Part shown: in pieces, positions 21,517-36,533 of the stretch | How positions within the stretch are numbered: position 1 is the first letter of the stretch | How the letters are laid out: each line of letters starts with the position of its first letter | Translations under genes and position numbers: made by a program | Assembly (NCBI RefSeq): GCF_023278365.1 | Contig: NZ_CP075338.1 | Span: forward strand, 2,914,001 to 2,978,000 | Direction: 5' to 3' | DNA length: 64,000 nucleotides | DNA from: Epilithonimonas zeae | GTDB taxonomy: Bacteria > Bacteroidota > Bacteroidia > Flavobacteriales > Weeksellaceae | The notes under the pieces: generated by a model | Seen by the model: the letters and a program-made list of their open reading frames with translations, nothing else | Told to the model about the DNA's origin: nothing | Database searches by the model: none

Positions 21517-21650
21517 TTTTGGGCAATCCCTCTCCAAGGCTTTAGCCAACGCTCGGGTCGGGCTATCCACTCATATCTTTTGCTTTTCCCAAGCTAAATC
21601 TTAGCTAAAAAGCAAAAGGATAACCGTTACTATCCCTATTGCGTCCATTA
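21517..21650. repeat. Dispersed intergenic hairpin element, copy B
   Basis: Core stem CTTTTGCTTTT (21577-21587) pairs with AAAAGCAAAAG (21608-21618). Flanks are GGGCAATCCCT, TCGGGCTATCC and ACTATCCCT. It matches copy D (about 28015-28185) in reverse orientation. Confidence 0.7.
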
Positions 21651-25060: not shown

Positions 25061-25165
25061 GAGACGAAATCCCTAGCCCCGATTGCAGTGGAAATCCTTT
25101 TTTTGCGCTGGCTTGAAGCGTGGGCAAAAAAGATTGCAACGGAAAGCGGGATTAAGCTCCTAATA
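25061..25165. repeat. Dispersed intergenic hairpin element, copy C
   Basis: Contains AGTGGAAATCCTTTTTTTGC, an inner loop, then GCAAAAAAGATTGCAACGGA and AAGCGGG. The same words in the same order as copy D. Confidence 0.7.
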
Positions 25166-28014: not shown

Positions 28015-28185
28015 ATGTTCGTTGGCGGCGAAGCTGCGACAGGGATAGTAGTGGAAATCCTTTTGCTTTTTAGATTCTTCACTTCGTTCGGAATGACAAA
28101 TGTTCTAAAAAGCAAAAGATTGCAACGGATAGCCCGGTGACAAAATAGCTTGGGAAAAGTTTTGGGTTTTGGCAGTCGCCCTAAT
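28015..28185. repeat. Dispersed intergenic hairpin element, copy D, with a nested repeat in its loop
   Basis: Stem CTTTTGCTTTTTA (28060-28072) with TAAAAAGCAAAAG (28106-28118). Outside it are GGGATAGTAGTGGAAATC and ATTGCAACGGATAGCCCGG. The loop contains TTCACTTCGTTCGGAATGAC, which resembles a different repeat type. Confidence 0.75.
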
Positions 28186-34589: not shown

Positions 34590-35789
34590 TTACAAAACTT
34601 CAATCTGGTTTTTTAATAAATCTTCGAATTCGTCTCTTTTTCTGATAAGATGTGCTTTTCCGTCCAAGAACATTACTTCCGCTGGCTTCAATCTCGAATT
34701 GAAATTCGAACTCATCTCAAAACCATAAGCGCCTGCGTTTCTGAAAACAATCACATCACCTTCTCTTACTTCATTGATTTTTCTGTCCCAAGCAAAAGTA
34801 TCTGTCTCACATATGTTTCCAACCACAGTATAGATTCTTTCCGGACCTTTTGGATTGGATAGGTTTTCGATAATATGATAAGAATCGTAGAACATCGGAC
34901 GAATCAAATGATTGAATCCGGAATTAACACCTACAAAAACGGTCGCTGTAGTTTGTTTGATAACATTGGATTTTACCAGGAAATGTCCACTTTTACTCAC
35001 CAAAAATTTTCCAGGCTCAAACCAAAGCTGGAATTTTTTCCCAGAAGTTTCCTCGTGTTTTTTAATCGCAGCATTAACTTTTTTCCCAAGAGATTTCACA
35101 TCTGTTTCGATGTCGCCGTCTTGATAAGGAACTTTGAAACCGCTTCCCATATCCAGATATTTCAGATTTGGGAAATGTTCTGCCAGTTCGAACATAATAT
35201 CAAGACCTTGAAGAAAGACGTCCGGATCTTTGATCTCGCTTCCTGTGTGCATATGAAGCCCTTCAACATTGATGTTAGTGGATTTCATAACACGTTCGAT
35301 GTGACGAAGCTGATGAATGGAAATGCCAAATTTGGAATCGATGTGACCTGTCGAGATTTTATAATTTCCTCCTGCAAAAATGTGCGGATTGATTCTCACA
35401 AAAATCGGATAAGAACTACCGAATTTATTTCCAAATTGCTCCAAAATCGAAATGTTATCGATATTGATATGAACATTCAGAGACATTGCTTCCTCGATTT
35501 CTGCAAGGTCAACACAGTTTGGTGTGAAAAGGATTCTGTCGTTTGAGAAACCAGCTTTCAAACCCAATTTCACTTCGTTGATAGAAACACAGTCAAGAGA
35601 AGCGCCTAACTTTTCCACGTATTTCAGGATATTGATATTGGTTAAAGCTTTGGCTGCGTAGAAAAATCTTGTGTTCTTCGAGAAAGAAGAAGTCAGTTTT
35701 TCGTATTGTTCGCGTATCGAATTAACGTCATACACATAAACGGGTGTCCCGAATTCTTTTGCTATAGCCAGCAAATCCTGATTTGTCAT
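34590..35789 (-). CDS. lysA: Diaminopimelate decarboxylase
   Basis: The last step of lysine synthesis, converting meso-diaminopimelate to lysine. A 399-residue alanine-racemase-fold PLP enzyme: the PLP lysine is in RFFYAAKALTNINIL, and EGLHMHTGSEIKDPD, FEPGKFLVSKSG, VGNICETDTFAW and FRNAGAYGFEMSSNFN complete the active site. It is preceded by a leader with its own promoter, a lysine-rich small ORF and a terminator 25 nt before the ATG, indicating transcription attenuation by lysine supply (inference). Confidence 0.95.
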   Translation of the reverse strand: MTNQDLLAIAKEFGTPVYVYDVNSIREQYEKLTSSFSKNTRFFYAAKALTNINILKYVEKLGASLDCVSINEVKLGLKAGFSNDRILFTPNCVDLAEIEEAMSLNVHINIDNISILEQFGNKFGSSYPIFVRINPHIFAGGNYKISTGHIDSKFGISIHQLRHIERVMKSTNINVEGLHMHTGSEIKDPDVFLQGLDIMFELAEHFPNLKYLDMGSGFKVPYQDGDIETDVKSLGKKVNAAIKKHEETSGKKFQLWFEPGKFLVSKSGHFLVKSNVIKQTTATVFVGVNSGFNHLIRPMFYDSYHIIENLSNPKGPERIYTVVGNICETDTFAWDRKINEVREGDVIVFRNAGAYGFEMSSNFNSRLKPAEVMFLDGKAHLIRKRDEFEDLLKNQIEVL

Positions 35790-35799
35790 AAGTTAAATT

Positions 35800-35840
35800 T
35801 TTAAAAATAAAAAGGCAGATTCTTACAAAAAGAGTCTGCC
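35800..35840 (-). terminator. Attenuator terminator upstream of lysA
   Basis: On the minus strand GGCAGA (35840-35835 inward) pairs with TCTGCC, then one mismatch, then TCTT/AAGA, followed by a U-rich run; it ends about 20 nt before the lysA ATG. Its 5' arm (ACUCUUU) can instead pair with AAAGAGU at the leader-peptide stop (35870-35864), which would be an antiterminator. Confidence 0.75.
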
Positions 35841-35868
35841 GCAATAGATATCTTATGCATGCAACTCT

Positions 35869-35940
35869 TTATACATTCCAAACCTTAGAGAACCTCACAG
35901 CTCCCTTTTTTCCGATTTTGCTTTGTTTAAAATATTGCAT
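35869..35940 (-). CDS. Lysine-rich leader peptide of lysA
   Basis: ATG 35940 to TAA 35869, 23 residues, with lysines at positions 5, 8, 11, 12 and 19 (FKQSKIGKKGAVRFSK is the core). Five lysines in 23 codons directly upstream of the lysine-producing gene, with the stop codon inside the antiterminator strand, is the layout of a classical attenuator leader. Confidence 0.7.
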   Translation of the reverse strand: MQYFKQSKIGKKGAVRFSKVWNV

Positions 35941-35961
35941 TGCTTTTGTTAAAATTTTTCG

Positions 35962-35992
35962 CAAAATTAGAGTTTATCTGTAAATCCTGCAA
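35962..35992 (-). promoter_or_regulatory. Promoter of the lysA leader transcript
   Basis: Minus strand TTG (35992-35990), 20-nt spacer, TAATTTTG (35969-35962). It predicts a leader of about 165 nt before lysA. Confidence 0.65.
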
Positions 35993-36032: not shown

Positions 36033-36533
36033 TTATTTTTTCTTTGTTGGTAGTAAATAAACAATTCCGATATTACTTTTAGGAATTCCATCCAGAAGAT
36101 TATTTGTGATTCTTACGTTGTATCCATAAATCACTTTTACACGCATCAAACCAAATCCAATCTCCGGTCTAAAATATAAATTAGAATTTTTAAAGTCTGT
36201 AAAATAAATAAAGTTAGCTCCTAATGCCATTGCTCCAACTCCTCCGGAAACCCAACCTCCAATTTTTGGACCGATGATAAAGTTTTTTCCAGTCAGTAAA
36301 TTAACTTCAGTCGAAACAAAATAAGCAGAAGAAAGCGGGTGATGACCATTGGTTGAATTCTTGTATTTTGCTAAACCAACTTCTACAAAAAGAGAGTTTT
36401 TCCAAAAATTAATTCCTGTAAGAACTGTTAGTTGTCTTTCTGTTTGTAGGGAATCTTTTAAGGATTGAGCAGAAATATTGATGCTCTGAAATATAATAAT
36501 TAAAACAAAAAACCGAAGAATTCTTTTCATCAA
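36033..36533 (-). CDS. Exported protein, probable outer-membrane barrel
   Basis: A 166-residue protein with a signal peptide (MMKRILRFFVLIIIFQSINISAQ). Amphipathic strand-like segments follow: QLTVLTGINFWKNSLFVEVG, FIIGPKIGGWVSGGVGAMAL, NLYFRPEIGFGLMRVKVIYG. The glycine-rich alternating pattern suggests a small beta-barrel. It starts 3 nt after the exonuclease stop, so the two share a transcript. Confidence 0.65.
   Translation of the reverse strand: MMKRILRFFVLIIIFQSINISAQSLKDSLQTERQLTVLTGINFWKNSLFVEVGLAKYKNSTNGHHPLSSAYFVSTEVNLLTGKNFIIGPKIGGWVSGGVGAMALGANFIYFTDFKNSNLYFRPEIGFGLMRVKVIYGYNVRITNNLLDGIPKSNIGIVYLLPTKKK

Follow-up and report, generated by a model that had tools for sequence, protein, structure and literature searches.

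What controls lysA, the gene for diaminopimelate decarboxylase, in Epilithonimonas zeae? The gene lies on the minus strand of the stretch of DNA analysed here (the window: 64,000 nucleotides, positions 2,914,001 to 2,978,000 of contig NZ_CP075338.1, assembly GCF_023278365.1), and is preceded by a short lysine-rich open reading frame (ORF) and a hairpin. In the enterobacterial thr, his, ilv, leu, trp and phe attenuators, a promoter, a short ORF rich in codons for the cognate amino acid and a terminator stand before the first gene, and the terminator 5' arm can pair either with its 3' arm or with a segment located at the leader stop or close to it. The lysA leader is alike in all of these parts, and differs in its amino acid (lysine), its scattered codons, its partly conserved peptide and its phylum (Bacteroidota). 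To our knowledge, lysine is not usually an amino acid under leader-peptide attenuation. Here, the lysA leader is very probably a transcription attenuator that senses charged lysine tRNA through translation of the lysine-rich leader. The parts of the locus are as follows:

34590..35789, minus strand: lysA, diaminopimelate decarboxylase, the regulated gene (NCBIfam TIGR01048, 375.5 bits against a cut-off of 297.9)
35962..35992, minus strand: promoter of Bacteroidota type, TTG (35990-35992), 20 nt, TAATTTTG (35962-35969) (from the sequence)
35869..35940, minus strand: leader ORF of 23 codons, MQYFKQSKIGKKGAVRFSKVWNV and stop, with Lys at 5, 8, 11, 12 and 19 (sequence, pattern, purifying selection on the frame)
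35929..35940, minus strand: segment 1, the start-codon region, able to pair with segment 2 in ribosome-free RNA (minimum free energy (MFE) fold of the naked leader; swap test, P ~0.005)
35887..35906, minus strand: hairpin within the leader ORF, AGGGAGCU...GGUUCUCU (folding and covariation)
35861..35870, minus strand: segment 2 (AAAGAGUUGC), the antiterminator 5' strand, overlapping the leader stop (antiterminator pairing, swap test)
35829..35840, minus strand: segment 3 (GGCAGACUCUUU), common to antiterminator and terminator (covariation counts)
35803..35840, minus strand: predicted intrinsic terminator, hairpin GGCAGACUCUUUUUGUAAGAAUCUGCC at 35840-35814 (GGCAGA...UCUGCC) and U-run at 35813-35803 (folding, covariation, swap test)

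The promoter and the 23-codon ORF with its five lysine codons lie on the minus strand where an initial annotation of this DNA had placed them, and the TIGR01048 score agrees with its naming of the gene as lysA. The TTG-N20-TAATTTTG arrangement is of a type that we take to be the Bacteroidota promoter, and 95 of 96 non-redundant leaders have TA-N2-TTTG 10-50 nt upstream of their start. The terminator hairpin, which had been predicted to lie 20-25 nt before the lysA ATG (35789), ends 24 nt from it, and the U-run ends 13 nt from it. Since 24 nt would leave no room for a second promoter, transcription of lysA must presumably pass through the terminator. AAAGAGU, starting within the leader stop codon at 35870, is indeed the complement of ACUCUUU on the terminator 5' arm, an antiterminator pairing that UGC and GCA can extend past one bulged G. 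A generic promoter and terminator scan of the locus returned no terminator and no minus-strand promoter; it is blind to this terminator because its rule (stem, loop of 3-8, T-run) is unfit for a stem with an internal C-A mismatch, and to this promoter because its promoter type is sigma-70. Elsewhere in the window, an ORF of 166 aa (36033-36533, minus strand) with no NCBIfam match lies between an exonuclease-like gene and the leader, and three Flavo-1 RNAs (RF01705) are found at 25071-25157 (plus), 28034-28143 (plus) and 21552-21644 (minus).

Selection on the leader peptide was counted by placing changes in codons 2-23 on the lysA tree for the 79 leaders of the 23-codon type, drawn from the 96 non-redundant leaders whose lysA sequence was long enough (17 of other length or core were excluded). 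The 145 scored changes comprise 71 synonymous, 72 non-synonymous and 2 stop-related ones. Random relocation of the changes gives 38.2 synonymous, 96.4 non-synonymous and 10.4 stop-related on average, and 71 synonymous changes were reached in none of 500 simulations; the other two reading frames show only 23 and 25 synonymous changes. Judged by these counts, the leader frame is under purifying selection. Lys 5, 11, 12 and 19 together have seven synonymous and no non-synonymous changes. Lys 8 was lost twice on the tree, and leaders with Gln at this position have Lys at position 7. Several other residues are also kept, with synonymous and non-synonymous changes, respectively, of 10 and 0 for Gly 10, 4 and 0 for Gly 13, 7 and 0 for Phe 17, and 4 and 1 for Ser 18. 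One leader (L020) has a 6-nt insertion, which is in frame.

Two further codon positions can be mentioned here. At codon 16 (35893-35895), Lys and Arg replace each other nine times along the tree; the residue is always basic, and the change retains a U-A or U-G pair of the ORF hairpin. Codons 20-21 (35878-35883), GTT TGG, are unchanged over the 79 leaders, though GTT could vary silently; by eye, they are able to pair with codons 8-9.

In the proposed mechanism, transcription would start just upstream of the small ORF, with a ribosome trailing RNA polymerase. When lysyl-tRNA is ample, the ribosome would reach the leader stop and cover segment 2, segments 3 and 4 would pair to form the terminator, and transcription would stop ahead of lysA. 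When lysyl-tRNA is scarce, the ribosome would stall at a lysine codon (11/12 or 19) and leave segment 2 free to pair with segment 3 before segment 4 exists, so that no terminator would form and lysA would be transcribed. If no ribosome is present, segment 1 would bind segment 2, and the terminator would form. From the arrangement of the parts, we infer that ribosomes stall at lysine codons, that the switch responds to lysine, that the terminator works in vivo and that the ribosome-free state exists. That arrangement is the one expected of an attenuator: a short leader ORF apparently under coding selection, with lysine codons cognate to the product of the lysA pathway; a predicted intrinsic terminator before lysA; and a putative antiterminator, mutually exclusive with it, that a ribosome at the leader stop would mask.

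The pairings themselves can be followed through an alignment of 35 leaders. For the terminator and ORF hairpin taken together, 94.0% of cells are paired (36-63% in slid controls), and both partners have changed in 7 of 18 pairs (1-3 in slid controls; 7 was reached by 73 of 500 shuffles). The ORF hairpin alone has 96.1% of cells paired and both-side changes in three of its eight pairs; one terminator pair, at column 142, is unpaired in 24 of the 35 leaders. The antiterminator is paired in 92.1% of cells (slid controls, 36-64%). Its best pair, columns 94/141, is U-A in 17 leaders, U-G in 6, C-G in 11 and broken in 1, with U-A or U-G in one group and C-G in another. Both-side changes are found in only two antiterminator pairs, a number equalled by 179 of 500 shuffles and five of six slid versions, and the number of pair types was equalled by 457 of 500 shuffles. 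Support for the antiterminator from double changes is thin, and the independent events behind the covariation are few. Compensatory changes in both hairpins had been proposed as a check of the initial annotation: the terminator covaries clearly, the antiterminator less so.

Another view of the same pairings is given by a swap test in 23 leaders, in which each leader's own segment 2 and terminator-arm partners pair better than swapped ones (P ~0.0004). Pairing of the ORF start with the region after the stop is also weakened by swapping (P ~0.005), although both P values are optimistic because the leaders are related to one another. The start-codon pairing with segment 2 was judged in this way because its partners occupy different alignment columns in two groups. 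The antiterminator is made of quite different letters in some leaders, with GAGCC/GGCUC in L149 and L154 and GGUCUG/CAGACU in L156.

Folding was computed with and without a stalled ribosome, whose footprint was set to 12 nt past the codon, in line with PMC4833913. For the naked leader, the computed energy is -37.5 kcal/mol (z -2.4; 2 of 200 shuffles are as low), and in its MFE structure the start-codon region is bound to segment 2 and the terminator is formed. In the window, the antiterminator has -14.1 kcal/mol and the 34-nt terminator stretch -12.3 kcal/mol. The computed probability of the terminator in the window is 0.99 both for the naked leader and when a ribosome occupies the stop; it is 0.60 for a ribosome at Lys 12 and 0.43 for one at Lys 19. 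Across the 15 leaders computed, stalling at one position or another lowers this probability by 0.2 or more in nine and does not in six; with a stalled ribosome it stays at or above 0.9 in 6 of the 15. In the naked state, it is at least 0.84 in 12 and 0.35-0.64 in three (L078, L156 and L152). The RNA left free before segment 4 exists has a folding energy of -6.7 to -15.5 kcal/mol if the ribosome sits on the tested lysine codons, and of 0 to -3.2 kcal/mol if it sits on the stop. An exception is L152, with -0.6 kcal/mol when the ribosome is on Lys; its last Lys sits inside segment 2. Because the equilibrium folding is mixed, the attenuation model needs co-transcriptional kinetics. The computed folds are consistent with the co-transcriptional form of the model, and only partly with the equilibrium form.

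How widely the leader occurs was examined in two ways, by LysA protein similarity and with a covariance model. Among the lysA loci gathered by similarity (best 80 of 333), 57 have a complete leader, 56 of them found by pattern and one, L002, missed by it owing to FTK. Thus, the small ORF and its lysine codons, whose fate in relatives had been named as a check, are kept at most of these loci, with the record of no non-synonymous change at Lys 5, 11, 12 and 19 given above. At 22 of the 80 loci the leader is missing, so it is restricted to some lineages; the remaining locus (L004) is cut by a contig end. Leader DNA is present in 23 of 23 genomes of the genus, the window's own genome counted, which is more than a chance arrangement would give, and the closest LysA among the matches listed, 99% identical, is that of Epilithonimonas arachidiradicis. 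The covariance model, built from the 35 leaders, finds a match in 195 of the 320 genomes searched from the family to which the window belongs, and these matches span 9 of 33 genera. Re-searching 21 matching genomes, selected because the match was weak or accompanied by a second one or because their genus was new to the set, put the best match upstream of lysA in 19; the other two matches (G226 and G232, of one genus) are unrelated, with no lysA in the locus, and the genera therefore fall from nine to eight.

Of the 127 family genomes without a real match, 80 were searched for lysA, which is present in 65. A leader of this kind was not seen in the 40 upstream regions read from these 65 genomes; by eye, lysA there mostly follows directly after the exonuclease-like gene or has its own promoter. 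Lysine-rich small ORFs were matched by pattern in part of the 40 regions, and many of them resemble the ends of upstream genes. One such genome (G304, locus L187) has by eye a terminator-like hairpin, GGCAGGCUCC...GGAUCCUGCUUUCUU, just upstream of lysA and no leader ORF; perhaps it is a remnant of an attenuator. Candidate further copies of the element, namely a second match in the window's own genome (L164) and L159-L163 and L165-L167, were rejected, as their loci lack lysA and by eye they resemble plain terminators.

Leader peptides fall into several types, each with variants. In Epilithonimonas and many Chryseobacterium the peptide is MQ.FKQ.K.GKKG[AT][VI][RK]FSKVWN[VI], in Kaistella M....SIKK..SKGKK..SK....., and in Cloacibacterium MNAILKIKSTSSKGKK.F.KAKKWSYS.ELQ; in the Cloacibacterium type, segment 2 is placed before the stop. 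Further types are MPTLSSKQIKISKKGIKPFSKDFVLS (L151), MSAVVTFKKVS.KGKK.F.KGISV. (L155 and L156) and MKTVYASKKGMKKGSKKFSKKPV (L154, read by eye from a TTG start). The diverged group of 12 leaders has 5-9 Lys per 25-31 codons and, by eye, little other peptide identity besides a KG...K core.

The window's own genome offers a direct comparison, since other amino-acid genes in it also have short cognate-rich leaders followed by a terminator hairpin. Upstream of thrA (L209, C1 near 209499) is a leader of 24 codons, MNFIITTTTISTTTTISSCRKVCL, then a terminator; TIGR00657 matches the start of this 814-aa ORF, whose length suggests a bifunctional protein. Upstream of hisG (TIGR00070; L213, C1 near 3519485) are an 18-codon leader, MSIQLMHHHHHSHVQAGR, and a terminator, and a third such pair, with the 18-codon leader MSYSVIIIVIISIIGFRW, precedes a 302-aa ORF directly before ilvD (TIGR00110; L214, C1). 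These leaders are probably threonine/isoleucine, histidine and isoleucine/valine attenuators, respectively. They differ from the lysA leader in their distances to the gene and in having cognate codons in runs: TTTTISTTTT for thrA, HHHHH for hisG and IIIVIISII for the ORF next to ilvD. Rfam gave no match at threshold in these three loci or in three lysA loci. Neither dapA nor the stand-alone aspartokinase of this genome has a lysine-rich small ORF within 300 nt upstream. We suggest that consecutive AAA/AAG codons would cause slippage or stalling on poly(A) whether or not the tRNA is charged, which may be a reason for the scattered lysines of the lysA leader.

Some features speak against attenuation. 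The lysines are scattered, unlike the runs of the Thr, His and Ile leaders; non-lysine residues such as Gly 10 are conserved, which plain codon counting does not require; and many relatives manage without a leader (22 of 80 loci, best 80 of 333). Conservation of Gly 10, Gly 13, Phe 17 and Ser 18 over synonymous change and recurrence of a KG-xxx-FSK-like core in the diverged group could instead point to an arrest peptide of the TnaC or SpeFL type, in which the nascent chain (KG...FSK core) together with free lysine or another ligand halts the ribosome and the same RNA switch follows. We consider this unlikely: the core overlaps the conserved ORF hairpin, so that Phe 17 and Ser 18 may be kept for the sake of RNA pairing; the C-terminus differs among leader groups; the shift of Lys 8 to position 7 in one type fits codon counting; and the own-genome Thr, His and Ile leaders resemble plain codon counters. 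We are equally doubtful that the leader does more than count lysine, its conserved core (Gly-Lys-Lys-Gly ... Phe-Ser-Lys) acting as a nascent chain that delays or halts the ribosome and either detects lysine itself or makes the response sharper; if it did, the scattered lysines would have evolved because AAA/AAG runs stall and slip regardless of tRNA charge.

A structured RNA, either a riboswitch or a protein-bound leader in which the ORF is incidental, would account for a naked leader that only 2 of 200 shuffles equal in stability (z -2.4) and for the covarying ORF hairpin, but is very improbable given the strong frame-specific selection, the in-frame 6-nt insertion of L020, and the lysine-rich frame that the diverged group keeps on different DNA. 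Nor does any Rfam family match over the leader at threshold: the matches found, at E 0.49 and 0.7, are far under the gathering scores, and an L-box or other Rfam family there is rejected. The lysine riboswitch (L-box, RF00168), which serves the same kind of target genes, was not found by covariance search in any of 100 family genomes (a control search was positive in 4 of 14) or at the locus, and its absence had been noted in the initial annotation. We give hardly any credence to a terminator that merely ends the upstream gene's transcript while the small ORF serves another purpose. A same-strand ORF does end at 36033, ~190 nt before the terminator, but the promoter match lies downstream of that ORF and there is little room between terminator and lysA. 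Moreover, a perfect-stem search flagged only 2 of 40 leaderless upstream regions, one with a hairpin of another kind (L185) and one an edge artefact with no sequence (L200), the L187 hairpin being found by eye. Finally, the heptamer A AAA AAG (Gly10-Lys11-Lys12) stands in slippery register in the window, as a programmed -1 frameshift site would, but Gly 10 is GGA in 31 and GGT in 12 of 43 leaders, a switch that destroys the heptamer, and 8 of 12 diverged-group leaders use GGG for the glycine that precedes the Lys pair. With the heptamer not conserved, frameshifting was rejected as next to impossible.

By its anatomy and evolution, the lysA leader thus appears to be a real and conserved lysine-specific leader-peptide attenuator. 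Among known systems, the lysine-biosynthesis gene cluster of Thermus thermophilus is reportedly under leader-peptide attenuation (Tsubouchi et al., 2005); it likewise concerns lysine biosynthesis, in another phylum and another pathway (aminoadipate). The Bacteroid-trp motif stands before tryptophan genes, as its name also suggests; its amino acid is a different one, and it does not match over the lysA leader, whether at threshold or with E relaxed to 1. This Bacteroidetes motif (Rfam RF01692) is named in a table of PMC2864571. The initial annotation had regarded a lysine peptide attenuator as noteworthy in a flavobacterium, but the mechanism is not foreign to these bacteria: besides the own-genome Thr, His and Ile leaders, the transcriptome of Flavobacterium psychrophilum holds, according to PMC9723704, strong clues for leader-peptide attenuation upstream of amino-acid biosynthesis operons. 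A literature search, with most subscription papers and supplements outside it, found no lysine leader attenuator before lysA in Bacteroidota.

The leader would thus represent, in Bacteroidota, the classical attenuator adapted to lysine, matched in about six in ten of the 320 family genomes and described by no Rfam model. It raises the question of how a lysine attenuator avoids poly(A) runs, and whether the scattered codons stem from that. Seen beside its Thr, His and Ile counterparts in this genome, it points to leader peptides as a common means of amino-acid control in these bacteria, and the attenuator probably lets the cell make LysA only when lysine runs short.
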